A stretch of 43,154 bases of DNA from a virus, in the IMG/VR virus record IMGVR_UViG_3300047471_000916, positions 1-43,154 of that record; one strand, 5' to 3'. Positions 4,551 through 23,898 of this stretch are shown piece by piece. The notes under the pieces are model-generated. The model was not told the origin of the DNA, searched no databases, and saw nothing but the letters and a program-made list of their open reading frames with translations. The position numbers and the translations under genes were made by a program. Every line of letters begins with the position of its first letter. The stretch's first letter is position 1.

Positions 4551-4605
4551 ACTACAGTAAATAAGAGAACCGCTTAGAAGAAGAACCGGGAGACATAAAC
4601 AGTCC

Positions 4606-4634: not shown

Positions 4635-4673
4635 CTGCGGTGTGATCCTGTCCCTCTCTCGAAAGGCCCGCAG

Positions 4674-10911: not shown

Positions 10912-11051
10912 TGAACCACAAGCGCAAGCGCCCCAAGCATCGCCGCAGCGGCTGTCTGCTCTGCAAGCCGAACAAGCTCCAAGCGAACGTCAAGGCGCAG
11001 CGGCGCAAGGACAAGAAACGCGCCTTCGCCAACGAGCGAGCGGCGTGGTGA
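10911..11051 (+). CDS. Tiny basic CxxC protein
   Basis: A 46-residue, very basic protein starting at ATG 10911 by overlap with the previous stop (TGATG). RRSGCLLCKPNKLQ (about 12-25) holds one CxxC followed by K-P-x-K, a pattern seen in small proteins of many actinobacterial phages. The rest is Lys/Arg-rich (KAQRRKDKKRAF). It probably binds nucleic acid. The next gene's GTG overlaps its stop. Confidence 0.5.
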   Translation: MNHKRKRPKHRRSGCLLCKPNKLQANVKAQRRKDKKRAFANERAAW

Positions 11052-11305
11052 GCACCCTCCTCGCCCAAGGCCTCGAACACATTGCCACCGCCGCGATGCG
11101 AGAACAGGCCGCCGAGGTGATCTACCTCAGCGCCGAGGGCTACTCGGTGCCGGAGATCGGCCGCCTCTTGCAGATCAAGCGACCGCAGGTGAGCCTGCTG
11201 CGCGAGCTGGCCGGGGACGGGCTGATCGAAGTGCTGCGCTCCGAGGGCCGAAGCGACGGCGAGATCATTCGGACGCTGGGCGTTCCCACGGCGCGGCTGG
11301 GCTAG
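11048..11305 (+). CDS. Helix-turn-helix protein
   Basis: An 85-residue protein starting at GTG 11048 by GTGA overlap. It has two helical DNA-binding-like parts: VIYLSAEGYSVPEIGRLLQI (about 23-42) followed by KRPQVSLLRELAGDGLIEVLR, a HTH similar to sigma region 4 or MarR-type helices, and SEGRSDGEIIRTLGVP (about 66-81), a second shorter HTH-like repeat. It ends 19 bases before the portal gene. It could be a regulator of late genes, alone or with the sigma-like protein. Confidence 0.55.
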   Translation: MSTLLAQGLEHIATAAMREQAAEVIYLSAEGYSVPEIGRLLQIKRPQVSLLRELAGDGLIEVLRSEGRSDGEIIRTLGVPTARLG

Positions 11306-11307
11306 CT

Positions 11308-11320
11308 GAGCCGATATTCG
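11308..11320 (+). promoter_or_regulatory. Late-type promoter motif, copy 1 (portal)
   Basis: GAGCCGATATTCG. The -10-like GATATT (11313-11318) ends 6 bases before the portal ATG. No -35 is shared with the other copies, so the conserved GAGCC would act as an extended -10. Confidence 0.65.
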
Positions 11321-11324
11321 AGGC

Positions 11325-13748
11325 ATGGCGACCCCGACCCTCCCGGCCGAGTCCTCCAACGGCCGCCCGCCGGGGCGTCAGGCCCCCACTGGCCGCAGCG
11401 GCACGGTCAACGTGCGCGGCTGGATCGAGGACCGCGAGTTCAACAACCGCCTGCGCTGGCCGCTCAACCTCGACGAATACGAGAAGATGCGGCGCACCGA
11501 TCCCACGGTGCAATGGATGCTCCGCCTCGTCTCCACGCCGCTGCGGGCGGCCCTGTGGTCGGTGCAGCCGCCGGAGAACCCCAGCCCGGTCGAGCTGGAG
11601 GCGACCTGCTTCGCTCAGCACGCGATCTTCTCCGAGCTGGACGGCGGCTTCGACCAGCACCTGCGCCAGGCGCTGACCTACCTGGACTTCGGCCACTCGG
11701 TCTTCGAGCGCTCCGCCGAGCTGCGCCCGGTCGAGTTCGACGTTGACGCCGGTGACGAAGGCGAGCCGACCCACGTCAAGCGCGACGCCTTCGTGCTCGC
11801 CGCATTGGACCCGCGCCTTCAGCGCACGATTCAGCGCTGGAACGTCGATCCGGCCGAACCCAAGCGCCTCCTCGACATCAAGCAGTGGCTCGCCGATGGG
11901 CACCAGCCTTCGGTGACGACGATCGAAGCCGACCGGCTGGTGATCTACGTCGGCGACAAGGAAGGCGATGACTGGCGCGGGGTCTCGCTGCTGCGCTCGG
12001 CCTGGAAATCGTGGTTCACCAAGTCCCAGCTACAGAACCTGGAGGCCATAGCCTTCGAGCGCTCGGCGGGCTTCCCGGTCGTCTACCCGCCCCCCGACGC
12101 CGACGACGATGATCTGACCTCGGTCGAAGAAGCGATCAAGAAGGTCAAGCAGGGCGAGAACGTCTGGATGATAATGCCCGGCCCCAAACAGCTCCCCGCC
12201 CGAGGAGGGGGACAGCCGGCCGAGGAGTGGCTGGTCGAGGACCTGGCGATCAACGCCTCGGCCGGACAGGCGGCGGACTTCGGCGCCGCAATCGGCCGCT
12301 ATGACCTGGAGATGGCCAAGAACGTGATGGCCTCCTTCATGGAGCTGGGCCAGAAGGAGGTCGGCGCCCGGGCCACAGCCGACGTGCAGCAGGACCCCTA
12401 CTACCAGGCGCTCGCCGCCCATGCCTCCTACATCGAGGACACCTTCTCAGAGGCCGTGCTGGCGCCGCTGTGCGACTGGAACTACACCCTGGAGCGCTAC
12501 CCGCGGCTGGTCTGTTCGAAGCTCCAGGCGAAGAACGCCGAGGTGATCGCCGCCGCGGTCAAGGGCCTGATCGAAGCGGGTGCGATGCAAGCCGATGAAC
12601 CGCTGGAAGACTTCCTGCGCGACCTGCTCGACGCTCCCGACGCCGACCCCGACTACGAGGAGGAAGAAGAGGAACCGCCGCCGGTTCAAGTGGTGCCGAT
12701 GCCGGCCGCCAACGCGAGCCAGGCCGGTGGCACGCAGGGAGCGGGCGAACCGGGGACCGGCGGCGCGCCGGGGATGGCGGCCTCCCAGCCCAAGCGCCGA
12801 CTTTGGTCGAGATTTAGAAGAGGCGGTAAGGGGACTAATTCAGATCCCATCCCCGCGCTCCTAGAGCGCGGGGACTACCCACTCAACCGCCATCAGGTCG
12901 AGGCGATAGAGCGCAGCGAGAGCTTCTCGCAATTCATCCCCTCCCGGCCGCTGAGGGGCGTCGAGCACCACGTCGCCTGGCAGCAGGTCGCCGACACCCT
13001 CGACAACGCCCAGCTCGACATCGTCGCAATCGGCGAGCGGGTCATGGAAGGCCAGCTCGGCTCGCTGCAAGCCTCGGCCGATGAGGCGGTCGAACGGGCC
13101 GACATCGCCGCCATCGAAGCGCTCAAGCCCGACCCGCGCCCATTGGCCGAAGCCCTGGAAGCCGAGCTGCTGCGGATCTACGCGACCGGCCAAGCCGACG
13201 TGCGCGCCGAGGTCCGCCGCCAGCAGGATGCGCTGAAGGCCGAAGGGCGGACGGCGATGGCCGCAGAACGCCGAGCCGGAGAACCGCCGGATATCCCGCT
13301 GTCGAAGGCAGAGATCGCGGCGATCATCGCGGCCCTGGCGGCGAGCATGGCCGACACCGGCTCGCAAGCGGCGACGCAGGCGATCCGCCAGCGGGCGCTG
13401 AAGGCCCTGGCCCAGCGGGCGCGGACGGAGGCTGCGCCCGGTGAGGACCCTTTGGCCCAACTTAGAGCGGCGCTGCGACAAAGCGCTCCGCTTGCCTCCA
13501 ACCGGGTCTATGGGATGGGGCGGATGGACGAGATTCAGACCGCTGCGGCACGAGGGCTGATCGAAGTCGTAATCAGGAGCGCTGTGCTCGACAATAGGTG
13601 TTGCGACGTCTGTGAAGGCTCAGACGGGGAAAGCTTCCGGCCCGAAGTTGCCCCGCCGTTGCCCGACGGGTCCTGCGAAGGCGGGGATCGCTGCCGGTGC
13701 CAGTACTTGCCGGAACTCATGGCTCCGAGCGAAACCTCGGTGCCCTAG
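11325..13748 (+). CDS. Portal protein fused to a MuF-like minor head domain
   Basis: An 807-residue protein. Residues about 25-440 look like the DUF935 (Mu gp29) portal family: NVRGWIEDREFNNRLRWPL, then MRRTDPTVQWMLRLV and the helical core (VIYVGDKEGDDWRGVSLLRS, EAIAFERSAGFPVVY). The portal forms the ring through which DNA enters the head. Residues about 735-795 look like the MuF/gp30 C-terminal domain, with VLDNRCCDVCEGSDGESF and a final C-E-G-G-D-R-C-R-C. In Mu these are separate genes. The linker (about 480-530) is Pro/Gly-rich, then KGTNSDPIPALLERGDYPLN, which resembles a motif in the tape measure protein of this phage. A perfect 10-bp hairpin (12851-12873) encodes part of it. Confidence 0.85.
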   Translation: MATPTLPAESSNGRPPGRQAPTGRSGTVNVRGWIEDREFNNRLRWPLNLDEYEKMRRTDPTVQWMLRLVSTPLRAALWSVQPPENPSPVELEATCFAQHAIFSELDGGFDQHLRQALTYLDFGHSVFERSAELRPVEFDVDAGDEGEPTHVKRDAFVLAALDPRLQRTIQRWNVDPAEPKRLLDIKQWLADGHQPSVTTIEADRLVIYVGDKEGDDWRGVSLLRSAWKSWFTKSQLQNLEAIAFERSAGFPVVYPPPDADDDDLTSVEEAIKKVKQGENVWMIMPGPKQLPARGGGQPAEEWLVEDLAINASAGQAADFGAAIGRYDLEMAKNVMASFMELGQKEVGARATADVQQDPYYQALAAHASYIEDTFSEAVLAPLCDWNYTLERYPRLVCSKLQAKNAEVIAAAVKGLIEAGAMQADEPLEDFLRDLLDAPDADPDYEEEEEEPPPVQVVPMPAANASQAGGTQGAGEPGTGGAPGMAASQPKRRLWSRFRRGGKGTNSDPIPALLERGDYPLNRHQVEAIERSESFSQFIPSRPLRGVEHHVAWQQVADTLDNAQLDIVAIGERVMEGQLGSLQASADEAVERADIAAIEALKPDPRPLAEALEAELLRIYATGQADVRAEVRRQQDALKAEGRTAMAAERRAGEPPDIPLSKAEIAAIIAALAASMADTGSQAATQAIRQRALKALAQRARTEAAPGEDPLAQLRAALRQSAPLASNRVYGMGRMDEIQTAAARGLIEVVIRSAVLDNRCCDVCEGSDGESFRPEVAPPLPDGSCEGGDRCRCQYLPELMAPSETSVP
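12851..12873 (+). repeat. Perfect hairpin inside the portal gene
   Basis: CCCCGCGCTC and GAGCGCGGGG are fully complementary with a 3-base loop. It encodes the IPALLERG segment of the portal-MuF linker. It lies at a local change in base composition (about 12800-12850 is AT-richer than its surroundings). Confidence 0.7.
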
Positions 13749-13905
13749 CTTGCCGCGCGGCGCGGCCCCTCTGCGCCCGTGCTTCGGCCTCAAGCCGCCG
13801 GTACCAGGCCAGCGTGTAGAGCGTCTTGAACTCGGCGTGAGAGCCGACGGAGCGTTCGGCGCGCGCTTGCCAGAGCGACGCTCGGGAGTCGGTGGCGGTC
13901 TTCAT
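13717..13905 (-). CDS. Small basic protein on the minus strand (uncertain)
   Basis: A 62-residue ORF with ATG at 13905. On its strand a GATACA ends 6 bases before the ATG, as in the leaderless genes. The product is helical (SRASLWQARAERSVGSHAEF, then LYTLAWYRRLEAEARAQRG) and basic. It overlaps the end of the portal gene by 32 bases on the opposite strand and sits alone between portal and protease. It could be a real small gene; the Arg-rich end also fits a chance ORF. Confidence 0.4.
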   Translation of the reverse strand: MKTATDSRASLWQARAERSVGSHAEFKTLYTLAWYRRLEAEARAQRGRAARQARAPRFRSEP

Positions 13906-13989
13906 GGGACCTGTATCGGCGCGCCGGGCCGAGACTTGAGAGCACCGGACGGATGTTTGCAGCAGCCCGGCGGTTGAGGCGGCCCTCCT

Positions 13990-14002
13990 GAGCCGATACT
14001 CG
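13990..14002 (+). promoter_or_regulatory. Late-type promoter motif, copy 2 (protease)
   Basis: GAGCCGATACTCG. GATACT (13995-14000) ends 6 bases before the ATG at 14007. Confidence 0.65.
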
Positions 14003-14006
14003 CCAC

Positions 14007-15365
14007 ATGACCGAGGCGCTCAAGGACTACTCCGCCGAAGCGCGGGAAAAGCTGGCGAAGGAATCCAAGGCGCTGCCGGACGGCTCCTTTCCGATAGTCG
14101 ACGTGGCCGACCTTCGCAATGCGATCCAGGCTGCCGGTCGCGCCTCCAACCCCGGCGCCGCTAAGGCCCACATCAAGAAGCGCGCCGCCGCGCTGGGCCA
14201 GTCGGGACTGATCCCCGAAGGCTGGGCGCAGGAAGAGGGACTCGATTACGTGGTCGCCTTCGCCGTCGCCGGCGCCGATGAGAGCGGCATCTCCGAACCC
14301 TTCGAAGTGCTGCGCGTCGGCGAGTTCAAGCGCGGCGAGCGCACCGTGCCAGTCTCCGAGGCCGACCTCGACCAGGCGGTCGCCAACTTCAACCGCTGGA
14401 AGGCGCTCGGCCAGGAAATCCCGGTGGACTACGACCACGCTTTCAACGAAGGTCGCGAGGCTCCCGCCGCAGGTTGGTTCACGTCGCTGATCCGCAAAGG
14501 ACAGTCGCTCTGGGCGCAGGTGCGCTGGACCGAGCAGGCCCGCGAGCAGATCGCCTCCCGCGCCTATCGCTTCTTCAGCCCCGAGTTCACCGCGCAGTTC
14601 CGCTCGGAGTCCGGCCAAGAGGAGGGCTTCACGATCCTCGCCGGCGCCCTGACCAACCGCCCCTTTCTGCGCGGGATGACCCCGGTGGCGCTCTCCCAGG
14701 AGGTCGAGCGGGAGATGCTGGCCTGGTTCGCGGCGAAGCTGGTCGCCGAGGAACCGCCGAGCCGAGCCGATACTCGCCCCGACGTGACAGAGAAGACCGA
14801 CACCGACACCCAGCCGGAGACCTTCAAGGTCGAGATCGACGGCGCCGAGAAGGAGTTCAAGGCCGCCGACATCGTTGCCCTCTCCGCCAAGGCCGCCGAA
14901 GCCGATGCTGCTTCTGAGAAGGCCACCGAGGCCGAGAAGGCCGCCAAGGAGAAGGCTGCGGAAGCCGCCGCTTCCAAGGGCCAGGTCGAGGCTCTGAGCA
15001 CTCGCATCGACGCCGCCGAGAAGCGGGAGTCCGACCGCGACTTCGCCGAGATCTTCAAGCAGGCCCAGCGCGATGGCCGCCTCGATGCCAAGGATGAGAC
15101 CGAGAAGACCTGGCGGGAGACCTTCGACGCGCTCGGTGCCGAGAAGACCAAGGCGCTGGTCGAGCAGGTCCCGGCTGAGACGATCCCGCTCTCCTCCCAG
15201 GGACGCTCCGGCTCGGGCGAGCAGGAAGCCGCGCCGAAGGGGATGCACGCCGAGAGCTTCAAGCTGAACCAGAGGGTCGAAGCCTTCATGGCCGAGCACC
15301 CCGACAAGAGCTTTGAGGACGCGCTGGCCCACGTGCAGGCCGAGATTCAGAAAGCGGCTGCCTGA
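14007..15365 (+). CDS. Head maturation protease (Mu gpI-like) with C-terminal scaffold
   Basis: A 452-residue protein. Residues about 15-75 look like a small helical domain often fused to phage proteins (GSFPIVDVADLRNAIQAAGR, then KAHIKKRAAALG). Residues about 85-245 match the Mu gpI protease family: FEVLRVGEFKRGERTVPVSE, NFNRWKALGQEIPVDYDH, GWFTSL and the Ser-containing RFFSPEFTAQF, ending in LTNRPFLRGMTPV. It would cut the scaffold during head assembly. The last ~190 residues form a long Ala/Lys/Glu-rich coiled coil that is also made alone from an internal GTG at 14784. The gene has its own late-type promoter and overlaps the decoration gene by one base. Confidence 0.8.
   Translation: MTEALKDYSAEAREKLAKESKALPDGSFPIVDVADLRNAIQAAGRASNPGAAKAHIKKRAAALGQSGLIPEGWAQEEGLDYVVAFAVAGADESGISEPFEVLRVGEFKRGERTVPVSEADLDQAVANFNRWKALGQEIPVDYDHAFNEGREAPAAGWFTSLIRKGQSLWAQVRWTEQAREQIASRAYRFFSPEFTAQFRSESGQEEGFTILAGALTNRPFLRGMTPVALSQEVEREMLAWFAAKLVAEEPPSRADTRPDVTEKTDTDTQPETFKVEIDGAEKEFKAADIVALSAKAAEADAASEKATEAEKAAKEKAAEAAASKGQVEALSTRIDAAEKRESDRDFAEIFKQAQRDGRLDAKDETEKTWRETFDALGAEKTKALVEQVPAETIPLSSQGRSGSGEQEAAPKGMHAESFKLNQRVEAFMAEHPDKSFEDALAHVQAEIQKAAA
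14764..14776 (+). promoter_or_regulatory. Late-type promoter motif, copy 3 (nested scaffold)
   Basis: GAGCCGATACTCG lies inside the protease gene. GATACT (14769-14774) ends 9 bases before the in-frame GTG at 14784. Confidence 0.6.
14784..15365 (+). CDS. Nested in-frame scaffold protein
   Basis: The GTG at 14784 is in frame with the protease gene and would give a 193-residue protein identical to its C-terminus. It is a typical scaffold: a short acidic start (EKTDTDTQPETFKVEIDG), a long Ala/Glu/Lys coiled coil (about 30-85), then a helix-rich end (RVEAFMAEHPDKSFEDALAH). The start is preceded by copy 3 of the late promoter motif, so a separate mRNA is likely. Protease genes with nested scaffolds are known in Mu (I/Z) and lambda (C/Nu3); there the inner start uses a ribosome-binding site on the same mRNA. 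Confidence 0.65.
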   Translation: MTEKTDTDTQPETFKVEIDGAEKEFKAADIVALSAKAAEADAASEKATEAEKAAKEKAAEAAASKGQVEALSTRIDAAEKRESDRDFAEIFKQAQRDGRLDAKDETEKTWRETFDALGAEKTKALVEQVPAETIPLSSQGRSGSGEQEAAPKGMHAESFKLNQRVEAFMAEHPDKSFEDALAHVQAEIQKAAA

Positions 15366-15799
15366 TGGCCTGGGTAGAGGATCGCTACTCGCTTCCCTTC
15401 AAGGCCGCATCGGTGATGCCGCCGCGCACCGTCGTCGCGCTCGACACGGTCAACGGCCAGGTCATCCCCCTCACCAACGCTTCCCAGCGTCCCTACGGGA
15501 TCACCCAGGCATCGGGCGCTTCGCCCGGCCTCTCGGTCGCGGTCTTCGAAGCCCCCGGAGTCGCCAAAGCAATCGCGGCGGCCTCGCTCGGGCACGGCGC
15601 GGAGGTCTCGCTCGCCTCGATCGGTGTGGCATCGGCGGCGCAGTCCAACTCGCTCGCCACCACCACCCTGCTCGGGCCGAAATCGGCCGCCGCCTCGGGC
15701 ACCACGCAATGGTCGGTCGGCGTCGCGCTGACCCCGGCTCTCGCCGGAGAGATTTTCTCGGTCAAGCTCGAACCACGGCAGGTGAGCGGCCTTGTCTAG
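15365..15799 (+). CDS. Head decoration protein (DUF2190-like)
   Basis: A 144-residue, Ala/Ser-rich, beta-structured protein starting at ATG 15365 (TGATG). Its pattern, FKAASVMPPRTVVALDTVNG, then PYGITQASGASPG and KAIAAASLGHGAEVSLASIG, is that of the DUF2190/lambda gpD-like capsid cement proteins: a beta barrel that trims and stabilises the shell after expansion. It sits between the scaffold and the major capsid gene, the usual place. It overlaps the next gene by 8 bases. Confidence 0.75.
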   Translation: MAWVEDRYSLPFKAASVMPPRTVVALDTVNGQVIPLTNASQRPYGITQASGASPGLSVAVFEAPGVAKAIAAASLGHGAEVSLASIGVASAAQSNSLATTTLLGPKSAAASGTTQWSVGVALTPALAGEIFSVKLEPRQVSGLV

Positions 15800-16817
15800 G
15801 ATTCTCGACCACCCCGAGCTGCTGCACCAGCGGGTGGACACCGAGGCGTTCGCCGACGCGCGCGGCGCGGCCGGGCTTCAGGTCATCGACCCGCTGCTGA
15901 CCAACGTCGCCCGCCGCTACATGGCGCACGGCTTCATCTATGACCAGCTCGTCGCCCGCCAGCCGGTGCAGACGATCTCCGGCCAGTACCCGACCTTCCC
16001 CAAGTACTACTGGTTCGCCCAGATCGCCGACAACTCGATCGAGGACCGCACCGAAACCAAAGAGGTCGGCTTCGAGTGGTCCACCGAGCACTACAACGCG
16101 AAGAAGTACGGCCTGAAAGTCTCGATCTCCGACGACGAGCGCGCCAACGCCGCTCCTGCCCTGCGCCTAGAGCAGAACAAGACCGAACTGCTCGACCTCC
16201 AGCAGGCCCTTGCCCGCGAGATTCGCCTCGCCACCAAGCTGCGCGAAACCGGCGTCGCCGGCGGCGAAATCGCGGCCGAAAACGAAGCCGCAGCGGCGAA
16301 AAAATGGTCCAGCTCGGAATCCAACCCCGAGGCCGACCTCCGCGCCGCCGCGCTCAAGGTCTACGAACAGATCGGCTACAACCCAAACACGCTGATCCTG
16401 CCCTACCCGGTGGCCTACAACCTCGCCACCGTGCACGGCACCGACACCTTCCGCAACCAGATGCTCTACACGGTCAACGGCCAGGAGATGATCCGGCTCG
16501 GCGACGGCATCCTGCCCGCGCAGATCCATGGCATGAAAGTCATCATCCCGCGCGGCTCGCAGAAGATCGTCGCCAACGAGCCCGGCGCGACCGCCACCGC
16601 GGAAGAGATCTGGGGCAAAAACGCGATTCTCGCCTACATCGACCCCTCCGCCGGATGGGGCACTCCAAGCCTGATCTACGGCTTCCAGTTCATGGCCCCG
16701 ACCGTCGCGCGCTGGCAGCGCATCGATCCCGATGTCGAGTACATCCGCGAGATGGAACGGGTTGATGAGAAGGTGGTCGCGCCCAACGCCGGGTACGTCA
16801 TCAAGGAATGCCTCTAG
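15792..16817 (+). CDS. Major capsid protein
   Basis: A 341-residue protein assigned as the HK97-fold shell subunit by position, size and content. The start is TTG 15792, overlapping the decoration gene by 8 bases; a GTG at 15834 is an alternative. There is an N-arm (LHQRVDTEAFADARGAAGLQ), an extended loop (YPTFPKYYWFAQIADNS), a long helix (NKTELLDLQQALAREIRLATKL) and a C-terminal beta region (WGTPSLIYGFQFMAPTV). The Glu/Ala-rich stretch near 160-175 may be an inserted loop. No cleavage site can be named. No Mu gpT similarity is claimed. Confidence 0.8.
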   Translation: MSRILDHPELLHQRVDTEAFADARGAAGLQVIDPLLTNVARRYMAHGFIYDQLVARQPVQTISGQYPTFPKYYWFAQIADNSIEDRTETKEVGFEWSTEHYNAKKYGLKVSISDDERANAAPALRLEQNKTELLDLQQALAREIRLATKLRETGVAGGEIAAENEAAAAKKWSSSESNPEADLRAAALKVYEQIGYNPNTLILPYPVAYNLATVHGTDTFRNQMLYTVNGQEMIRLGDGILPAQIHGMKVIIPRGSQKIVANEPGATATAEEIWGKNAILAYIDPSAGWGTPSLIYGFQFMAPTVARWQRIDPDVEYIREMERVDEKVVAPNAGYVIKECL

Positions 16818-17032
16818 TGGCCGATGAGGTCCGCCTCGCGGTCGCCGAGGGGCAACGGGTGATCGCCGAAGGCGCGGTGAAGACCGAGGGCGAGCGCTTC
16901 TCCGTCGATCCCGAGTCCGCCGAGTCGCTGCTGGAGCGCGGTCTCGCCAAGCGCCTCGCCGGCCGGCCGCCCAGCAAGGCTGCTTCCAAGACCGCCGAGT
17001 CGCCTCCCGAGCCGATACCTGACGCCGCCTGA
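16808..17032 (+). CDS. Small protein after the capsid gene
   Basis: A 74-residue protein starting at ATG 16808, overlapping the capsid gene by 10 bases. It has a short beta part (VRLAVAEGQRVIAEGAVKTEG), the helix VDPESAESLLERGLAKRL and a Pro/Ala/Lys-rich disordered tail. The layout is the same as the small gene before the tail tube at 23707: a beta strand part, then E-x-A-x-x-L-L, then a low-complexity tail. Such small proteins are often head completion or capsid-associated proteins. The function is inferred from position only. Confidence 0.55.
   Translation: MPLVADEVRLAVAEGQRVIAEGAVKTEGERFSVDPESAESLLERGLAKRLAGRPPSKAASKTAESPPEPIPDAA
17009..17021 (+). promoter_or_regulatory. Diverged copy of the late-type motif
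   Basis: GAGCCGATACCTG matches the first 11 bases of the motif. It lies inside the end of the preceding gene, 51 bases before GTG 17072 and 160 before GTG 17181, so the spacing is unlike the other copies. Confidence 0.3.
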
Positions 17033-17057
17033 TCTTCGTCGCCGCCGCACCGGCCGC

Positions 17058-17063
17058 TAGATT
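17058..17063 (+). promoter_or_regulatory. -10 element (TAGATT) before the glycosyltransferase island
   Basis: TAGATT ends 8 bases before a GTG at 17072. This island may thus have its own promoter inside the head operon. Confidence 0.4.
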
Positions 17064-17071
17064 GTCGCCGG

Positions 17072-17188
17072 GTGACGAAGCTGCCTCATGCAGAAGTGAG
17101 TCGCGGGGGCCTTGCGGCTTTCAGCGCTCGGCGCTTCCCGCTCGGGCTTAAACGATCAACCTCATGGCGAGACGCCCCGCGTGACTGA
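17072..17188 (+). CDS. Possible 38-residue leader ORF
   Basis: A short ORF from GTG 17072, 8 bases after TAGATT. The product is basic (SARRFPLGLKRSTSWRDAPRD) and unlike any known protein. It overlaps the glycosyltransferase GTG at 17181 by 8 bases, so it may serve only to couple translation. It may also be chance. Confidence 0.3.
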   Translation: MTKLPHAEVSRGGLAAFSARRFPLGLKRSTSWRDAPRD

Positions 17189-19766
17189 GTCCTTCGCCCG
17201 CGAGGACGGCCTGCCGACAATCGGCCTCGCCCTGATCGCCAAAAACGAGGCCGAGACTCTGCCGCGGCTGCTCGATTCGGTGGGCTGGACAGAGCAGCCA
17301 CTCAACACCGAGAAGCATTCGGCGGGAATGGGCTTGGGTCAGATCCGCACCGAGGCAGCCGTGGATTATGTGGTGCTTGCCGACACCGGTTCGACCGACG
17401 AGACCAAAGCGATAGCGCTGGCGCGGGGCTGCCAGGTCATCGAGACGCCCTGGACCGACAATTTCGCCGAGGCCCGCCAAGCCTCCTATGACGCTCTACC
17501 CGACTGGATCAACCTCTCGCTCTGGGCAGATGCCGACGATCTGATCGAGGGTGCCGAGAAGCTGCGCCAGCTCGGCGCGATGGTGATGTCGAACCCCGGC
17601 ATTAGCGGCACCCTGCACCGCTACAACTATGCTCGCGACGACGCCGGGAATACGGTCTGCGAGCTTTGGCGCGAGCGCCTGGTCCGCTACAACCATGGCG
17701 AGAAATGGATGCTGCCAGTGCACGAGGTGCTGCAAGTCCCCGGCGCCCTGGTCCACGTCGATGACGGCATCTGGCACCACCACCAGCCGCCCGAGCGAGA
17801 GCGCGATCCCGAGCGCAACTACAAGATCCTGCGCCGCAGCCACGAAGCGGCGACCGCCGCCAAGGAGCAGCCCGACCTGCGCACCGTCGCCTACCTCGGC
17901 ACCGAGGCATTGGGCCTGGGACGGCCTAAGGAGGCCGTGGAGCTGTTCAAGGACTATCTGAGCCGCCAGGACCCCAATGCATCCGAGGAGCGCTGTCAGA
18001 TCGCCCACAAGCTCTCGATAGCGCTCAGAGCGCTACGCGAGGGCGAGAAGGAGGTCCCGCCCCAGCGGATCGAGGAATCGATCGAGGCCGGTCACCTGGC
18101 CGTCCACGAGCGCCCCGACTGGCCCGATGGCTACATCGACCTTGCCGAGCTCAGCCTGCGCCGGGAGGAACCCGAGCGGGCGCTGTGGTTCTGCGAGCAG
18201 GCGCTGGCCCGCGAGACGCCGAAGACGCTACTAATCATCAACCCGCTGGAGTACCACTACCAGCCGCTGCTGATGCGCTCGGTCGCGCTGGCGAAGCTGG
18301 GCCGGGTCGAGGAAGCCTTCGACGCGACCCAGGCCGCCCTTCAGATCACCCCCTACCGCGACGACCTCAAATCCCAGGCGGGGATGGTCGGCGAGCAGTT
18401 GAAGCGCAAGCAGACGGTCGAAACGGTGCTCCAGTTGCGCGAGACGCTGATCCGCCATGACGAGAACCTGAAGGCGAACGCGCTGATGCGAGACGCCGTG
18501 CCCTACTTCGTCGCCAACGACCCGGCGGTGGCTCAAGCTCGGTTGGACAGCCGCGAGATGACGCTTCACGCAGCCGACCCGGCGCTCTATGGCTCCTATT
18601 ACCGAGAGAATCCGGGCGAGACACCCTTCGAGGCCCAGGGCATCCCGGTCGCCGAGGCGCACGAGCACTTCCACCGGGTCAAGTTCCTGCGCGAGGGGCT
18701 GGACAAGTATGCGGCCGAGCGCGGCAGCTTCGATGTCGGCGAGTCGATCGCGGTCAAGAGCGATCTGCGGATTCTCGACATGTCAGCCAACGACGGCTGG
18801 ATGCTGGCCAATCTCGCCGGCGCCGGCTATGGCACCCAGGGGACCCTCTCGGGCATGGACCTCAATCGGGATGCGGTGGAGCGCGCCCAGAAACGCCTAG
18901 CGGAAGTCAGCGGTGAAGTCATCTGCGACGACCTGCACAAGGCGGCGGAGCACTTCGAACCCGAATCCTTCGATGCCGTAGCCCTCTTTGAGACCTTGGA
19001 GCACACGCCGGATCCGACCGCGACTCTCGACGCGATGGCCCGCATGGTCAAGCCCGGCGGCCTCTGCTTCCTCAGCACACCCTGCGGCGCATATGAGAAC
19101 GGCAACGTCCCCGGCTGGGCCACGGTCGAGTCCAAGGGCCACCTGCGGGCGATGACCCCGGCGGAAGTCTCGGGGTTGCTCGCCGAGCGCGGCAAGATCA
19201 CCGCGATGGAGACCGAGCAGCGGCTGATCGTCGCCTCGATGCAGCCCCGCCCGCGGAAGGGCAAGATCGTCTTCTTCGCCGGTCCCGCCGACTGCCGTCC
19301 CGAGCAGATCACCGAGACGGGACTGGGAGGCTCTGAGACGGCGCTGTGCAAGATGGCCGAGCACTTCGCGCGCCGCGGCTACGTGGTCAAGGTCTTCGCC
19401 GGAGAAGGCGGCGGAGCGCGCGGGGACCACTGGACGGTCGAAGGAAAGCACGAGGAGGGCGAGGTCCTCTACGAGCCCTGGACCGCCTGGGACCCCGGCG
19501 AGCGCTGCGATCTGTTCGTCTCGCTGCGCATCCCGGAGGCATTCGACCGCACGATCAACGCCGAGCGCCGCCTGCTCTGGCTGCACGATGCCGACTACGG
19601 CGACCGCCTCACCGAGCAGCGGGCCTCGCGCGCCACCCACATCGCCGTGCTCTCCGACTTCCACCGCGAGATCATGGTCGAGCGCTACCCCTGGATCGAG
19701 GATAAGGTCTTCCTGACGCGGAACGGGATCGAGACGAGCTACTTCGAGGAGAAAGTCGAGGCGTGA
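17181..19766 (+). CDS. Multidomain GT2-TPR-methyltransferase-GT4(N) protein
   Basis: An 861-residue protein (GTG 17181 chosen; an ATG at 17112 lies upstream in poorer sequence). Domain 1 (about 10-220) is a family 2 glycosyltransferase: IGLALIAKNEAETLPRLLDS, DTGSTDET (68-75) and the DAD-type WADADDL (115-121). Domain 2 (about 240-440) is helical with TPR-like units (GRPKEAVELFKDYL, DGYIDLAELSLRREEPERAL). Domain 3 (about 500-680) is a class I methyltransferase with motif I ILDMSANDGWML (531-542) and FETLEHTPDP. Domain 4 (about 694-861) is the N-terminal Rossmann domain of a GT4/GT-B enzyme (GLGGSETALCKMAEHFARRG, LWLHDADYG, VFLTRNGIETSYF). It stops where the second GT-B domain should begin. It lies in the head module, so virion proteins are possible targets. 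Confidence 0.8.
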   Translation: MTESFAREDGLPTIGLALIAKNEAETLPRLLDSVGWTEQPLNTEKHSAGMGLGQIRTEAAVDYVVLADTGSTDETKAIALARGCQVIETPWTDNFAEARQASYDALPDWINLSLWADADDLIEGAEKLRQLGAMVMSNPGISGTLHRYNYARDDAGNTVCELWRERLVRYNHGEKWMLPVHEVLQVPGALVHVDDGIWHHHQPPERERDPERNYKILRRSHEAATAAKEQPDLRTVAYLGTEALGLGRPKEAVELFKDYLSRQDPNASEERCQIAHKLSIALRALREGEKEVPPQRIEESIEAGHLAVHERPDWPDGYIDLAELSLRREEPERALWFCEQALARETPKTLLIINPLEYHYQPLLMRSVALAKLGRVEEAFDATQAALQITPYRDDLKSQAGMVGEQLKRKQTVETVLQLRETLIRHDENLKANALMRDAVPYFVANDPAVAQARLDSREMTLHAADPALYGSYYRENPGETPFEAQGIPVAEAHEHFHRVKFLREGLDKYAAERGSFDVGESIAVKSDLRILDMSANDGWMLANLAGAGYGTQGTLSGMDLNRDAVERAQKRLAEVSGEVICDDLHKAAEHFEPESFDAVALFETLEHTPDPTATLDAMARMVKPGGLCFLSTPCGAYENGNVPGWATVESKGHLRAMTPAEVSGLLAERGKITAMETEQRLIVASMQPRPRKGKIVFFAGPADCRPEQITETGLGGSETALCKMAEHFARRGYVVKVFAGEGGGARGDHWTVEGKHEEGEVLYEPWTAWDPGERCDLFVSLRIPEAFDRTINAERRLLWLHDADYGDRLTEQRASRATHIAVLSDFHREIMVERYPWIEDKVFLTRNGIETSYFEEKVEA

Positions 19767-20041
19767 ACGCTAATCCGGATGAGAGACGCGCCGCGACGCA
19801 GCTCTATGTCGGAGGAGCGACCTTCTGGGTCTTGGAAGAGTACGAGGAAGTCTCGGCGCTCTTGCGAGACATTGAATTCGGCAAGCAAGGCCGCCCGGCC
19901 TTCCAGGAGTTCATGATGCAGGGAGAGAGGGTAATCGCTCCGGTCACCCTCTACCTACCTGCCATTCTGGCAGCGATTCCTATCCCGCTCGAAGCGAGGC
20001 GGAGCATCTCAGAGTTGCGAGAGGAGCGGGAGAATGCCTGA
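19763..20041 (+). CDS. Small protein lodged between two halves of a GT-B enzyme
   Basis: A 92-residue protein starting at GTG 19763 (GTGA overlap). Residues 14-60 (LYVGGATFWVLEEYEEVSALL, split at 34) follow the pattern of small beta proteins with G-G-x(3-6)-E-x-x-E-E-[VI] and a later x-G-x-x-V-x-x-x-x-x-x-x-I. A similar pattern is seen in the gene at 20687. It is not a glycosyltransferase. It interrupts two ORFs that look like the N- and C-terminal domains of one GT4 enzyme. The next gene starts inside it with a good ribosome-binding site (GAGGAG). Confidence 0.5.
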   Translation: MNANPDERRAATQLYVGGATFWVLEEYEEVSALLRDIEFGKQGRPAFQEFMMQGERVIAPVTLYLPAILAAIPIPLEARRSISELREERENA

Positions 20042-20690
20042 TCCCCAGCGCAAGCCCTGGCTCGTCTACTCTTCCTCGCCCGATCGCGGCCTCGACGTGC
20101 TCTTGGAGATGTGGCCCAGCATCCGCGAGCAGGCCCAGGCGGCGGGGATCAAGAAGCCCGAGCTGCACTTCGCCTACTCGCCGATCTACTTCACCTTCCG
20201 CGACTCCGGCGCCTTCCCGCATCTCAAGGACTTCCACGCGAAGCTGGAGCGCTTGGAACAGGAGGCGGGCGAGGGACTGGTCAACCACGGCTCGCTCAGC
20301 CAGCCCGAGCTGGCGAAGCTCTACCGCGAAGCGATGATCTGGTCTTACCCGAGCTGGTCCTCGCCGAGCGCCGCTGCCTTCCCGGAGATTTTCTGTCTCT
20401 CCGCGGCAGAGGCCCAGGCTGCCGGCTGTATTCCGGTGACGCTGGACTACGGGGCGCTGAAGGAGACCGTCTTCGGCGGAGATCGACTGGAGCCGCAGGT
20501 CGCCAACGGCAAGCTGAGCCTGGAGTGGCGCGAGCGCTTCGTCGCCGCCTGCGTGCACTATCTGAGCGACCGCGAGGCGCGGGTCGATGCTCGAAGGAAC
20601 TGCCAAGAGAAAGCGCTGGCTCTCGATTGGCTCGGGGTCTGTGACCAATGGGAGCTAGAGTTGCTTACCAAGGGTAAGGTCGCGGCATGA
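20034..20690 (+). CDS. Second Rossmann domain of a GT4 glycosyltransferase
   Basis: A 218-residue protein with ATG 20034 and GAGGAG upstream. It begins where a GT-B second domain would: LVYSSSPDRGLDVLLEMWPS (about 9-28). It continues with a helix-rich part, GSLSQPELAKLYREAMIWSYPS (split here at Ser, about 83-104), and the nucleotide-sugar-binding region FPEIFCLSAAEAQAAGCIPV (about 114-133), which follows the family's E-x(7)-E-type pattern. On its own it lacks an acceptor domain, so it probably works with the C-terminus of the 861-residue protein, either as a split enzyme or by association. Confidence 0.7.
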   Translation: MPDPQRKPWLVYSSSPDRGLDVLLEMWPSIREQAQAAGIKKPELHFAYSPIYFTFRDSGAFPHLKDFHAKLERLEQEAGEGLVNHGSLSQPELAKLYREAMIWSYPSWSSPSAAAFPEIFCLSAAEAQAAGCIPVTLDYGALKETVFGGDRLEPQVANGKLSLEWRERFVAACVHYLSDREARVDARRNCQEKALALDWLGVCDQWELELLTKGKVAA

Positions 20691-21025
20691 ACCGGCCCAA
20701 GGCGGTTGTCCACCTGCGGACCACGGGCGGCTTCATGATCGCCGAGGAGCGCCGGGAGATTCTGTCCCGCATCGCCGCCGGGCGCTCCCAGGAGGCAGAG
20801 TTCCTCACCCTGCACGGGATCACCTTCGAGGGTCACGAGATGACGGTCTCGGTTCGCATCGACGAGGTCGCCACCGTGCAAGAGCTGGGGGAGGAGCGCT
20901 GGCAGTTCGAGCTGGACAGCTTCATGCGCAGCGCCGCTGCCAAGGACGCCGACACGGAGATGAAAGCGAGCTGGGCGAAGTTCGGCGAGCAGGCGACGCG
21001 GGAAATGGGCAGTGAGGGTGACTGA
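20687..21025 (+). CDS. Small FlbD-like beta protein
   Basis: A 112-residue protein starting at ATG 20687 (ATGA overlap). The N-terminal 65 residues (VVHLRTTGGFMIAEERREIL, then GITFEGHEMTVSVRIDEVATV) have the layout of a common phage family of small beta proteins that resemble FlbD. The C-terminal part is a charged helix. The role is unknown; the same pattern occurs in the gene at 19763. Confidence 0.5.
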   Translation: MNRPKAVVHLRTTGGFMIAEERREILSRIAAGRSQEAEFLTLHGITFEGHEMTVSVRIDEVATVQELGEERWQFELDSFMRSAAAKDADTEMKASWAKFGEQATREMGSEGD

Positions 21026-21036
21026 GCCGATAATCG
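21024..21036 (+). promoter_or_regulatory. Late-type promoter motif, copy 4 (connector)
   Basis: GAGCCGATAATCG. GATAAT (21029-21034) ends 6 bases before the ATG at 21041. This is the copy closest to the TATAAT consensus. Confidence 0.65.
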
Positions 21037-21040
21037 CCCC

Positions 21041-21481
21041 ATGCCCCGCCCCTACTCCTACGCCGCTCTGAGCGACGTCACCGGCTACATCGCCGGGGCC
21101 ACCTTCGGCGCCTCGACCCGGCCCACCGCGAGCCAGGTCGCCAACGGGATCGACCTCTGCGCCGACGAACTCGACTCCCTGCTCTCGCGCCTGGACTATG
21201 CGACGCCGCTACCCACGACCGCCACCGCCTCCGTGGATATGGCCCGCGCCTGGGTCACGGTGGGAGGTGCCTACCGGGCGGCGATGGCGATGCCCCAGGG
21301 CCGCGAATCCAAGCACGCCGAAGCCTACGGGAAGGAGTGGAAGGCGCTGCTCGAATCGCTGGAGGGCGGCAAGCGCTCGTTGCCCGACGCGCCGAAACTG
21401 AAGCGCACCCGCTCTCCGGCCGTCGCTCCCGGCTCCGAAGAACCGACCTTCACGCGGGCGAACGCCCAGACGCTGCGATGA
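21041..21481 (+). CDS. Head-tail connector (adaptor) protein
   Basis: A 146-residue protein likely forming the adaptor ring below the portal. The helical N-terminal part (YSYAALSDVTGYIAGATFGA, then VANGIDLCADELDSLLSRLD) matches the gp6/Ad1 type of connector, which has four to five helices. The C-terminal 40 residues are basic and Pro-rich, probably an arm. It has its own late-type promoter. It overlaps the next gene by 4 bases. Confidence 0.6.
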   Translation: MPRPYSYAALSDVTGYIAGATFGASTRPTASQVANGIDLCADELDSLLSRLDYATPLPTTATASVDMARAWVTVGGAYRAAMAMPQGRESKHAEAYGKEWKALLESLEGGKRSLPDAPKLKRTRSPAVAPGSEEPTFTRANAQTLR

Positions 21482-21621
21482 CCGTCCGGAGGAAATCTCG
21501 CTGGAAGCGTCTTCAGGAATGGCTCAAGGGACCGGAGACCGGGATGATTCGCGAGGGTGGATATCGACCGACCAAGGATCCAGGGCCAGTTCCAGATTCG
21601 CTGATCCGGCCGAAGCGATGA
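21478..21621 (+). CDS. Tiny basic hypothetical protein
   Basis: A 47-residue protein starting at ATG 21478 (ATGA overlap). It is basic at the start (TVRRKSRWKRLQEWLKG) and Pro/Gly-rich afterwards. No family is recognised. Confidence 0.5.
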   Translation: MTVRRKSRWKRLQEWLKGPETGMIREGGYRPTKDPGPVPDSLIRPKR

Positions 21622-21854
21622 CCATCCTCGGCTGGCTCGCGCGGCGCATCGGCGGCCCAAGCTTCGCCGCCCGAATCGAATGCACCTGCCCGATAATCGA
21701 CGGTCGGCCGATGCTCGATGGCTGTGCGCTGGCGCTGACGGACTTCGAAGGCCGCTATCCGCTCGGCTGCTGCCATAACGGCGGCTGCCCGGTGCGGGAC
21801 GCGATCAAGGCCGACCCGCCAGAGAACTGCTGCCGACAGGGAGCGCCCGTATGA
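21618..21854 (+). CDS. Small cysteine-rich protein
   Basis: A 78-residue protein starting at ATG 21618 (ATGA overlap). It has eight cysteines: CTC, C near the middle, CC-H-N-G-G-C and a final CC. The CCHNGGC segment could be a metal site or pair in disulfides. No signal peptide is seen. It lies among connector genes and its role is unknown. Confidence 0.55.
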   Translation: MTILGWLARRIGGPSFAARIECTCPIIDGRPMLDGCALALTDFEGRYPLGCCHNGGCPVRDAIKADPPENCCRQGAPV

Positions 21855-22306
21855 CTGTCCTCGTCAAGGGCATCTCCTCGGCCAACCGCAGCCTCGGGGC
21901 CTACGCCGCCAAGCTCGCCGCCCCGGTCGCGATGTTCGAGCAGATCGCCCAGGAGCTGTCGGTCGCAGAGCAAGCCTGGTTCACCGCCGAGGGCGAGGGG
22001 TCCTGGCAGCCGCTCTCGCTCCAGTACGCAGCTCGCAAGTCCCGCGAATACCCCGGCCAGCCGATCCTCGTCGCCTCCGGGGAGCTGCGCGACTGGCTGG
22101 TCAACCCGGCCAAGGCGATGCGGATAACGTCGCCCGAGACGATGCAGTGGGTCAACGACCGCAATACGCCGGACGGGCGCTGGAACCTCGCCGAGCTGCA
22201 CCGCGACGGCACTCCCACGATGCCCGCGCGCGATCCGGTGATTCCGGCGGCGCGGCTGAATGAGATCGCTCTCGCCGCCGCCGAGATCCACGCGAGATTC
22301 CGATGA
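21851..22306 (+). CDS. Mu gpG-like virion morphogenesis protein (tail completion)
   Basis: A 151-residue protein starting at ATG 21851. The pattern SVAEQAWFTAEGEGSWQPLS, then YPGQPILVASGELRDWL and a C-terminal PARDPVIPAARLNEIALAAA, is that of the Mu gpG / HK97 gp10-like family. These proteins close the connector or join it to the tail. The position between connector and tail terminator fits. Confidence 0.75.
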   Translation: MTVLVKGISSANRSLGAYAAKLAAPVAMFEQIAQELSVAEQAWFTAEGEGSWQPLSLQYAARKSREYPGQPILVASGELRDWLVNPAKAMRITSPETMQWVNDRNTPDGRWNLAELHRDGTPTMPARDPVIPAARLNEIALAAAEIHARFR

Positions 22307-22797
22307 GCGCCTCATCGTGGATAGAGGCGACCTGCGACGCGATGATCGCCAAGCTCGAAGCCGACCTCCCGGCGAAGCTCGAAGCGATCAACGCCGAGGT
22401 CACCGACGGCTTCACGGTCGACCCGCCGACCGGGATCAGCATCGGCGAGCGGGCCGAACCGACCTATCCGTGGATCGTGGTCGCCCCCTCGCGCTCGGCG
22501 CTCGACAAAGACACCGGCGAGCGCATCGTCTATGAGCACTTGGTCACGCTCGAATCGGTCTACTGGGCCCAGGGCGAGGACGAGCTGATCCGCAAGCTGC
22601 TGCGCTTCGGCCGCGCGGTGCGCGAGGTGGCGCTGAAGGACCGCTATCCGGGGGTCGGACTGGGCCAGGGCGGATGGGGGCTGCGTTTCAAGGGGGACGC
22701 CTACGGCCGCATGATCCGGGTCGAAGGCGAAGGCGGCGCGGGCTTCATCAAGATGGTCGCGACGACCGTCGGCGTGCGCCAGCAGCAGACGGTCTGA
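22303..22797 (+). CDS. Probable tail terminator protein
   Basis: A 164-residue protein starting at ATG 22303 (ATGA overlap). The alpha-beta layout, N-terminal helix (ATCDAMIAKLEADLPAKLEA), beta strand core (YPWIVVAPSRSAL) and a long helix (DELIRKLLRFGRAVREVALK), fits the lambda gpU/tail terminator fold. Assignment rests on position, size and layout. Its stop lies 2 bases from the stop of the converging minus-strand gene. Confidence 0.6.
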   Translation: MSASSWIEATCDAMIAKLEADLPAKLEAINAEVTDGFTVDPPTGISIGERAEPTYPWIVVAPSRSALDKDTGERIVYEHLVTLESVYWAQGEDELIRKLLRFGRAVREVALKDRYPGVGLGQGGWGLRFKGDAYGRMIRVEGEGGAGFIKMVATTVGVRQQQTV

Positions 22798-22799
22798 AT

Positions 22800-23321
22800 T
22801 CAGGCTTCGGCTTCGGCGGCCCAGCGCTGGAACGTGGCGACCGAGTTCCGACACTGATGTCGGTACAGCCTGCTTCTGACGTGGGGGCAGTGGGCGCTTT
22901 CGCGTCGGGCCTGCTCCCACAGCCACGCAACATGTTCGGCTGTGCACTCCGGCGTCGGCGCGACCCGGTACATGGCATCGGCGGGATTGCCGGAGTGCCC
23001 GTAGCCGAGCAGGTGCCCGACCTCGTGCCGCATCACGCCGGGGACTTCGCATGGCTGGAGGGTGTCGGAGATGCGAAGGCTGCATGTGACCAGCGTTCCC
23101 GGAGCCGGTTGGGTGGCCTCTCCCGCGTTGCCTTCGATTTCACTCGGGGGCACGAGTTCCCTCATCAGCGTCGAGCACCGCGCCGGTTCTCCCTGGCCCC
23201 AATAGGCGACCGCCGCCTGGTAGTCCGCTTCGGCTTCGGGCGAGAACGGCGCCGCACTGGCGCTGGGAGCGAGGATGAGGGCGGCGATGATGAGCAGGCA
23301 GACCTGGCAGTCGCGTCTCAT
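22800..23321 (-). CDS. Secreted metzincin-like metalloprotease
   Basis: A 173-residue minus-strand protein. The start has a signal peptide (CLLIIAALILAPSASA, about 8-23, with a likely cut after ASA). The metzincin zinc motif HEVGHLLGYGH is complete: H99, E100, H103, G106 and H109. A Met-turn candidate (AMY, M117) follows within ten residues, closer than usual for metzincins. Six later Cys may form disulfides. It would be exported and cleave surface or secreted proteins. Its ATG overlaps the stop of the gene upstream on this strand. It lies within the structural operon but opposite to it, which marks it as an extra gene (moron). Confidence 0.72.
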   Translation of the reverse strand: MRRDCQVCLLIIAALILAPSASAAPFSPEAEADYQAAVAYWGQGEPARCSTLMRELVPPSEIEGNAGEATQPAPGTLVTCSLRISDTLQPCEVPGVMRHEVGHLLGYGHSGNPADAMYRVAPTPECTAEHVAWLWEQARRESAHCPHVRSRLYRHQCRNSVATFQRWAAEAEA

Positions 23322-23587
23322 GCTCTTGCCTTCCTCGGCCTGCTCATCAGCCAGATCAGCGAGAGCGGCACGAAGCCGAGGAACCAGAGGAAGATCAGGA
23401 CGCCGACACCGATCCCGGTTCCCGCGTTACTGGCCGATTCGCAACTCTGCTTGCTCAGGTAGGCATGGTGGAGGCAGTTGCCGCCGGGGTCGGCACTGGT
23501 GATCGCGCCGAGAATCCAGAGGCCGATCAGCGCGCTCCAGAGGATCAGCGCCCAACTCATCTTGCGCCAGTGGGGTCGGATTCGCAT
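23318..23587 (-). CDS. Small two-span membrane protein
   Basis: An 89-residue minus-strand protein with two hydrophobic segments (ALILWSALIGLWILGAITS and GIGVGVLIFLWFLGFVPLSL) and a pair of Cys (C37, C48) in the loop between them. It starts at ATG 23587, with AAAGG 10 bases before. Similar two-span small proteins with C-x(~10)-C are common in actinobacteria and are uncharacterised. It is the first gene of a two-gene operon with the metalloprotease, driven by the promoter at 23655-23627. A role in host surface change or superinfection exclusion is possible but not shown. Confidence 0.6.
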   Translation of the reverse strand: MRIRPHWRKMSWALILWSALIGLWILGAITSADPGGNCLHHAYLSKQSCESASNAGTGIGVGVLIFLWFLGFVPLSLIWLMSRPRKARA

Positions 23588-23626
23588 TGGGGACTTCCTT
23601 TCGAGAGAGAACAGGATCACGCTTCG

Positions 23627-23655
23627 AAGCTACTACTTTACTTGCCGCGCGTCAA
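23627..23655 (-). promoter_or_regulatory. Minus-strand promoter with the shared operator-like box
   Basis: On the minus strand, TTGACG (23655-23650), a 17-base spacer and TAGCTT (23632-23627). The 14-bp box spans 23655-23642. The leader holds GATCCTGT (23618-23611) and AAAGG before the ATG at 23587, as at the early promoters. Confidence 0.8.
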
Positions 23656-23688
23656 CTACTGGCCCGCGAAGCCCGAAGCCACCGCGCC

Positions 23689-23701
23689 GAGCCGATACTC
23701 G
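23689..23701 (+). promoter_or_regulatory. Late-type promoter motif, copy 5 (tail module)
   Basis: GAGCCGATACTCG. GATACT (23694-23699) ends 7 bases before the ATG at 23707. It lies back to back with the minus-strand promoter of the metalloprotease operon and restarts plus-strand transcription after that insert. Confidence 0.65.
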
Positions 23702-23706
23702 CCCCG

Positions 23707-23898
23707 ATGGCGAAGCGCACGCTCAGATACGAAGGGCCGCAGGCTCTGGTCGTCGATCTGGAGCGCGAAGTCAGCCACGGCGACGAGATCGAGGTCGATG
23801 AGGCGCTCGCCTCTCGGCTGCTCGCCTCCCAGGGCTTCCACGAGGCCCAGGCGGCGCCGAAGGCCGCGAAGCACGAGAGCCACGGAGAAGGTGAGTAG
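23707..23898 (+). CDS. Small head-tail junction protein
   Basis: A 63-residue protein starting at ATG 23707. A beta part (TLRYEGPQALVVDLEREVSHG) is followed by the helix VDEALASRLLASQGF and a Lys/Glu/His-rich tail. The same layout appears in the small gene after the capsid (16808). Its place before the tail tube gene suggests a capsid or neck role. Confidence 0.5.
   Translation: MAKRTLRYEGPQALVVDLEREVSHGDEIEVDEALASRLLASQGFHEAQAAPKAAKHESHGEGE

Follow-up and report, generated by a model that had tools for sequence, protein, structure and literature searches.

A -10-like signal directly upstream of gene starts and tRNA genes in a group of phages is a candidate late promoter for a phage-encoded sigma factor

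Bacterial -10 hexamers require an A as second and a T as sixth base, the -10 elements of leaderless actinobacterial promoters have the form TANNNT, and a sigma factor can be split, as in SigO/RsoA of Bacillus subtilis. Late promoters of bacteriophage T4 are described as having a -10-like element only, with no conserved -35, and the T4 proteins gp55, which resembles sigma in domain 2 only, and gp33, a mimic of sigma region 4 (sigma4), as a pair that forms a split sigma (PMC2988020, PMC7892883). In the account of actinobacterial leaderless promoters in PMC4633059, transcription starts at the start codon and the -10 lies directly upstream. Cluster K mycobacteriophages carry start-associated sequences (SAS), reported in PMC3203893 as 13-bp asymmetric elements that typically lie 3-7 bp before starts, mostly in one orientation, contain AGGAG, and are proposed to act in translation. 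Here we describe a repeated signal, GAGCCGATANTCG, in the IMG/VR virus record IMGVR_UViG_3300047471_000916 (the window; 43,154 bases, 61-71% GC in 2-kb steps). Judged from sequence, this signal very probably starts late mRNAs at the start codon or right beside it, and we consider it likely that a phage sigma factor, like T4 gp55/gp33 in its logic, drives such -10-only, leaderless late promoters. No report of this system was found in searches of an open-access library, which did not extend to subscription journals and preprints.

The initial annotation of the window had proposed GAGCCGATANTCG as a dedicated late promoter directly before five starts. All five exact copies were recovered at the positions it gave, on the plus strand, which also carries the head and tail genes, with none on the minus strand (Table 1). 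In order of position, the gaps between motif end and start codon are 4, 4, 7, 4, and 5 nucleotides (nt), within the range that had been claimed. A third-order Markov model of the window predicts 0.005 exact copies on the plus strand and 0.007 on the minus strand, in agreement with the earlier estimate of less than one by chance. At up to three mismatches, GAGCCGATANTCG gave 96 matches in the window compared to a mean of 60.3 and a largest value of 76 in 100 shuffles; because loose matches are this frequent, only exact copies are informative. The diverged sixth copy proposed at 17009 (GAGCCGATACCTG, two mismatches) did not hold up, as it lies inside the last codons of the open reading frame (ORF) 16808-17032, and it was not counted since no start codon follows 3-7 nt downstream. 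A better degenerate candidate for a sixth site is GATTGTCG at window positions 17063-17074, 4 nt before GTG 17074. The 9-base core named in the initial annotation is exact in the five window copies, but the core shared with relatives is shorter, comprising only CGA...T, usually preceded by GC.

Relatives carrying the signal were identified by several scans (G and L numbers denote contigs and loci). Scanning viral contigs for the motif with a following ATG gave 22 stretches, including L012 and L018 on contigs G006 and G007, in which GCCGATACTCG is repeated before starts. These two contigs are 99.9% identical over 6295 nt and have four sites in common. When 32 window ORFs were compared with them, the only likeness was in the portal, in two stretches, with 31% over the main one. 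The relatives thus identified and those described below form an independent phage family (portal about 30% identical) with the same kind of signal. A second pattern scan listed at least 120 stretches; among the 117 new loci, which were read together with their multi-copy cases, repeated copies before starts were found in L212 and L254 only. Both come from one phage (contigs G015/G016), which has a neck protein in common with the window (41% identity). Searching with their terminase led to 11 loci. In total, 11 relatives were read, comprising G006, G007, G015, and G017-G024, with G018 and G020 represented by single loci. The corresponding locus-contig pairs are L273=G017, L266=G018, L286=G019, L288=G021, L283=G022, and L271/L276=G023 (IMGVR_UViG_2831922129_000001).

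CGANNNT is spelt in a phage-specific way, as CGATACTCG, CGATAGTAG, CGAAYCTAG, or CGACATTC, and the copies lie almost exclusively on one strand. Forward and reverse counts of CGATACTCG are 8/0 in G007, 6/0 in G006, 8/0 in G015, and 9/0 in G024, those of CGATAGTAG are 9/0 in G022 and 8/0 in G023, and those of CGAACCTAG or CGAATCTAG (together CGAAYCTAG) are 10/0 in G017, 10/0 in G018, 9/1 in G019, and 3/0 in G021. Summed over these 10 relatives, the phage-specific 9-mer occurs 80 times forward and once in reverse. The pattern read backwards is absent from nine of the 12 records and occurs once each in G017, G021, and G020. In G020, which the first pattern search missed, CGACATTC occurs six times forward and never in reverse. 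This spelling emerged from inspection of the bases upstream of expected starts and is post hoc, and since the 8-mer is present 0-5 times in other records, the G020 count alone is weaker. The same spelling later appeared in L302, the one new locus among 12 returned by a capsid scan of the motif family (the other 11 came from known contigs). L302, fetched afterwards, contains CGACATTCG six times forward and never in reverse, every copy with an ATG 5-6 nt downstream, preceding the portal, neck, 177-aa gene, protease, nested start, and one further gene. Within the CGAAYCTAG phages (L273/G017, L266/G018, L286/G019, L288/G021), the spelling is CGAACCTAG at 14 of 18 sites upstream of the protease gene and CGAATCTAG at 14 of 14 sites from that gene onward (Fisher P=7e-6 for the split), possibly marking classes of different strength or timing.

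The sites are closely tied to gene starts. Across the window and ten contigs (G020 left out), 73 of 85 sites are followed 3-7 nt downstream by an ATG or GTG opening at least 45 codons, compared to 5.6 expected from the same test at random plus-strand positions; counting the four sites common to G006 and G007 only once gives 70 of 81. For the general form CGANNNTNG-N3/4-RTG followed by an ORF of at least 60 aa, the 12 records contain 73 forward and 12 reverse sites, and 65 of the 73 forward sites are in the phage's own spelling. The downstream genes recur among phages and encode the portal, neck, a 177-aa protein, the protease, and a 113-aa protein. The search of related phages that the initial annotation had called for returned copies before the orthologous portal, neck, protease, and nested scaffold, with letters that differ by lineage, and relatives sharing the head genes do have copies rather than retaining the genes without them. 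Two sites without ATG or GTG, L266 9438 and L273 8221, lie before an apparent 177-aa orthologue whose frame opens with ATC 3 and 7 nt on, possibly a rare AUC start.

In 11 of 12 distinct phages, the protease gene contains a motif copy before an internal in-frame start, namely in the window (codon 260), G007, G015, G024, G023, G022, G017, G018, G019, G020, and L302, the last in frame by coordinate arithmetic. No nested-start copy was found among the three sites of G021. Its recurrence in lineages with different spellings indicates that the signal is retained inside a coding region.

A ribosome signal would not be expected upstream of a tRNA gene, so placement relative to tRNA genes was used as a test. 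ARAGORN, run on 20 sources, gave six tRNA genes in five of them. The motif lies immediately upstream of three tRNA-Met genes, with a gap of 3 nt in L273 (G017) and L276 (G023), a spacing also much used before start codons, and of 7 nt in G022. Rfam agrees on the L273 and L276 genes, while the G022 tRNA was unlisted in a search of the whole of L283 at gathering scores and scored 52.6 bits when searched alone. For the other three ARAGORN calls, tRNA-Gln and a reverse-strand tRNA-His in L266 and tRNA-Gly in L277, no motif was found 3-7 nt upstream. In G018 and G019 the motif is followed by stretches resembling tRNA, but Rfam did not recognize these as tRNA and they were not counted. Placement directly before tRNA genes argues for a transcription signal rather than a ribosome signal. 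Together with placement before orthologous genes and the in-frame protease copy, it supports the proposal of a dedicated late promoter without a -35 for leaderless mRNAs.

Promoter shape was examined in an alignment of 76 sites from nine records (G006, G020, and G021 left out). As the initial annotation had noted for the window, no -35 is shared; every column between -45 and -3 has 0.4 bit or less, and upstream of the 9-mer only G at -2 and C at -1 carry information (0.79 bit each). The TAAA that a FliA-type promoter has as its -35, 15 nt upstream, was not preferred at columns -21 to -18 in these sites. Invariance of the C, G, A, T, and G columns comes partly from the collection patterns; independent of these is the agreement in CGA and T among differently spelt signals at corresponding places. 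Within the hexamer GATANT, the second base A and the sixth base T are retained in all five spellings at corresponding places. The sites thus have the T4-type shape of a -10 alone. The AGGAG Shine-Dalgarno core (form GGGATAGGAGCCC) is absent from the five window copies and from the relatives' spellings. No T7-like RNA polymerase (PF00940) was matched in the 12 records, nor in any control genome.

The signal does not follow the terminase. The window terminase led to seven relatives and then to the best 80 of 555, 27-37% identical at the terminase. In these 80 loci CGATANTCG is not repeated and GCCGATANTCG occurs at most once per locus; the general form CGANNNTNG lies before a start 15 times forward and 17 times in reverse, so there is neither a repeat nor a forward excess. 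No relatives were found with the window capsid, and profile searches of genome contigs with terminase alignments found no relative in a host genome. The G023 capsid matched 420 records of named phages, with 22-34% identity among the matches listed. As a control, we searched the first 30 kb of named phages for repeated 8-mers, which gave none in Brusacoram and Sonny and two weak ones in Powerball, one of them Shine-Dalgarno-like. The same script gave none for the window and G020, because a motif base varies or copies are few, and returned some unrelated 8-mer in 9 of the 80 terminase relatives. A single 8-mer is therefore weak proof, and placement at orthologous genes, nested starts, and tRNA genes carries the argument.

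Just upstream of the first motif copy lie two candidate sigma genes that were not mentioned in the initial annotation. An ORF resembling sigma region 2 (sigma2-like), followed by a helix-turn-helix (HTH) ORF, occurs in each of the 11 records that include this region (the window, G006, G015, and G017-G024); G007 and L302 do not cover it. The pair is located between the terminase and portal genes in the window and before the terminase in relatives, ending at 11305 in the window (first motif at 11308) and at 5339 in G024 (first motif at 5346). A hidden Markov model (HMM) built from the sigma2 ORFs of 10 relatives retrieved the window ORF as best non-member among 2475 ORFs (E=7e-5), and matched none of 8426 ORF segments from partial loci of the 80 terminase relatives, the 7 earlier ones, and 3 named phages at E<=1. 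In sigma2 searches of named phages, the G019 query gave no match and the window query one weak match (E=0.4). Profile A3 gave eight matches against PDB sequences, all sigma factors and including FliA and WhiG (E 0.018-0.83). Pfam Sigma70_r2 matched six of 11 members at E<=1 (best 1.8e-5), and a six-frame search with PF04542 matched eight of 12 records at E<=1, with seven matches in the sigma2-like gene, that of G019 over the cut-off, and the eighth in a different sigma gene of G023. AlphaFold predicts the window ORF confidently for about residues 1-85, with blocks within residues 11-80 at pLDDT 87-94, and the 50 Foldseek matches listed are mostly sigma factors, with T4 gp55 at rank 2. These results support, without proving, the identification of the region-2-like protein as a sigma factor.

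The window HTH ORF matches HTH_23 (E=9.2e-7, over the cut-off) and Sigma70_r4_2 (E=0.012), and has the same order and frame offset as the relatives' sigma4-like ORFs. At E<=1, Sigma70_r4_2 matches nine of 11 members (best 6.8e-5). The sigma2 and sigma4 ORFs overlap in the relatives, with a frame offset of +1 in 10 of 10, while in the window the two are separate when the HTH ORF is taken from GTG 11048. To account for the offset, we considered a programmed frameshift that would fuse the two ORFs; separate starts are preferred because eight of 10 relatives have a start-type codon at the same aligned column (ATG five times, GTG, TTG, and the rarer CTG). In five relatives, the sigma2-like frame ends in a conserved zinc-ribbon-like motif, CxxCGWRxY...PNGxPGW...C, around and past the end of the HTH ORF. 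Another HTH protein is encoded at window positions 2325-2789 (HTH_23, E=2.1e-6) and matches the sigma4-like HMM weakly (E=0.0018).

Several observations weigh against a phage sigma that reads leaderless promoters. PF04542 matches the window only once, at 10603-10746, and with a genome-wide E of 0.0042 this match is below the family cut-off. An ordinary hmmscan at E<=1 gave no Sigma70_r2 match for the window sigma2 ORF, which matches the PHROGs sigma at E=0.1. Its Foldseek E values are 0.68 or higher among the matches listed, the VIA Z score is 8.7 at best, a value that the tool warns is common for helical bundles, and for the model of the G024 relative the matches were weak and mixed, sigma factors appearing only at ranks 3, 4, and 8. 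The HTH ORFs match many other HTH families as well as sigma4. In G023 (L276), another sigma-like gene at 1344-1550 matches Sigma70_r2 over the cut-off (E=1.3e-11); it lies far upstream of the late genes and could be the motif reader in that phage. Spelling does not follow the head genes, since G007 uses CGATACTCG yet has a capsid closest to those of G022 and G023, which use CGATAGTAG, and no residue-level correspondence between sigma and spelling was found. Fixed spelling is partly inherent in the search patterns, and there are few lineages, from records of uncertain completeness. Gaps vary as well, being mostly 3-4 nt, some 5-7, 5-6 in L302, and up to 10 in G020, so some mRNAs would not be strictly leaderless. 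Finally, 12 of the 85 sites lack a qualifying start, five of which precede a tRNA or tRNA-like stretch.

The same sites could instead be leaderless late promoters read by a host sigma, either housekeeping or WhiG/FliA-like, with the phage sigma-like ORFs doing something else. The retained A and T fit the needs of a -10 in general. Leaderless mRNAs with an ordinary -10 are described as common in mycobacteria (PMC4633059), and the window motif contains GCCGATA, the -10 printed for FliA/RpoF (PMC7286023, PMC3247240). As likenesses to promoters of the sigma28 family (FliA, WhiG), whose -10 is GCCGATAA, GCCGATA is found in five of five window copies and eight of eight G007 copies, and FliA and WhiG are among the eight sigma factors retrieved by the profile. 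However, the TAAA of a FliA -35 is absent from its place, and phages with CGATAGTAG, CGAAYCTAG, or CGACATTC do not fit GCCGATAA. The signal resembles the actinobacterial leaderless -10 of PMC4633059 in lying directly before the start codon, where RNA is predicted to start here as well, but the first base of the hexamer is G rather than T, the 9-mers are phage-specific, and the sites lie among genes that are late by gene content. Mostly one spelling is used within a phage and different ones between phages (65 of 73 general-form sites), and all 11 records covering the region have the sigma2-like ORF. Overall, a host sigma seems an unlikely reader.

A role in translation is suggested by the likeness to Cluster K SAS, as described in PMC3203893, in asymmetry, in spacing 3-7 nt before starts, and in the bias to one orientation. 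The two differ in their letters, as the motif lacks the Shine-Dalgarno core that SAS contain, and in location, since SAS are reported there in the non-structural half of the genome, whereas copies here lie amid structural genes and 3 nt before tRNA genes in two phages and 7 nt in a third; we regard a translation signal as very improbable. An operator or stoperator bound by a phage repressor or activator might also be short, repeated, asymmetric, and in one orientation, and the 13-bp stoperators of Cluster A, named in PMC3203893, act in transcription regulation. The narrow, close distance to starts and tRNA 5' ends, the -10 A/T pair, and the nested-start copy are not operator-like, which leaves a binding site of this kind a similarly slim prospect.

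We favor a model in which GAGCCGATANTCG is the -10-only promoter of a phage late regulon. RNA polymerase would open the DNA at the GATANT hexamer and RNA would start at the start codon or no more than a few bases away, making late mRNAs leaderless or nearly so, and the protease-internal copy would make a separate mRNA for the in-frame product, likely the scaffold. Specificity would most likely come from a very divergent phage-encoded sigma, composed of the region-2-like protein (10516-10911) and a separate HTH protein (11048-11305). The former may direct host polymerase to the motif, while the latter perhaps replaces sigma region 4 on the polymerase. We infer that the candidate sigma reads the motif and where RNA starts, and also, from gene content, the late timing. 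Such a system would share its logic with T4 late transcription as described, including a -10-only promoter and a candidate region-2 protein with a separate HTH protein, while kinship is not proven. It differs in that the motif letters are unlike those of T4 and vary by phage, the signal abuts start codons and tRNA ends, and the records are near 43 kb. More tentatively, this may be a high-GC phage family with its own T4-like late system, in which a split sigma from two genes in different frames and a phage-specific -10-only promoter produce late mRNAs, a nested protease mRNA, and some tRNAs starting at their first functional base.

Features of the window and selected features of relatives are listed in Table 1. 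A large ORF amid the head genes of the window (17112-19766) has glycosyltransferase-like and methyltransferase-like parts.

Table 1. Positions of the motif copies, the candidate sigma ORFs, and nearby genes in the window, with selected features of relatives.
Feature	Position	Strand	Details
Terminase large subunit	8521-10104	+	window head genes
Sigma region-2-like ORF, 131 aa	10516..10911	+	candidate late sigma factor, sigma2 part
Basic ORF, 46 aa	10911..11051	+	between the two sigma-like ORFs; read from sequence
HTH ORF, 85 aa from GTG 11048	11048..11305	+	candidate sigma4-like partner
Late promoter copy 1 (predicted), GAGCCGATATTCG	11308..11320	+	-10-like GATATT 11313-11318; predicted +1 at/near ATG 11325 (portal)
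Portal protein, 807 aa	11325..13748	+	phrog_113 E=3e-59
Late promoter copy 2 (predicted), GAGCCGATACTCG	13990..14002	+	predicted +1 at/near ATG 14007 (protease)
Head maturation protease ORF, 452 aa	14007..15365	+	phrog_328 E=2.7e-31; C-terminal part probably scaffold
Late promoter copy 3 (predicted)	14764..14776	+	within protease gene, 7 nt upstream of in-frame GTG 14784
Nested reading, 193 aa	14784..15365	+	in frame with protease ORF; likely scaffold
Scaffold-family gene	15365-15799	+	
Capsid	15792-16817	+	
Late promoter copy 4 (predicted), GAGCCGATAATCG	21024..21036	+	4 nt upstream of ATG 21041
Head-tail joining region gene, 146 aa	21041..21481	+	no PHROGs match
Late promoter copy 5 (predicted), GAGCCGATACTCG	23689..23701	+	5 nt upstream of ATG 23707
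63-aa gene	23707..23898	+	directly upstream of tail protein gene; phrog_3129 E=1.1e-4, unknown function
Minor tail protein	23901-24896	+	phrog_290 E=3.4e-12
Tape measure	25776-30479	+	
L273 motif	8128-8136		tRNA-Met from 8140, gap 3
L276 motif	16324-16332		tRNA-Met from 16336, gap 3
L279 zinc-ribbon-type frame	4599-5339		
L276 zinc-ribbon-type frame	9593-10312		
L284 zinc-ribbon-type frame	9497-10240		
L283 and L288 zinc-ribbon-type frames			counterparts

If the proposed model is correct, these phages would add to T4 another example in which late transcription rests on a -10 alone with a split sigma. They would also offer a natural set of sigma/-10 pairs with letters changed between lineages, useful for understanding how region 2 recognizes the -10. 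Because it marks the starts of late genes closely, even those within other genes, the signal can correct gene calls in uncultivated phages and serve as a searchable tag for their late regulons.

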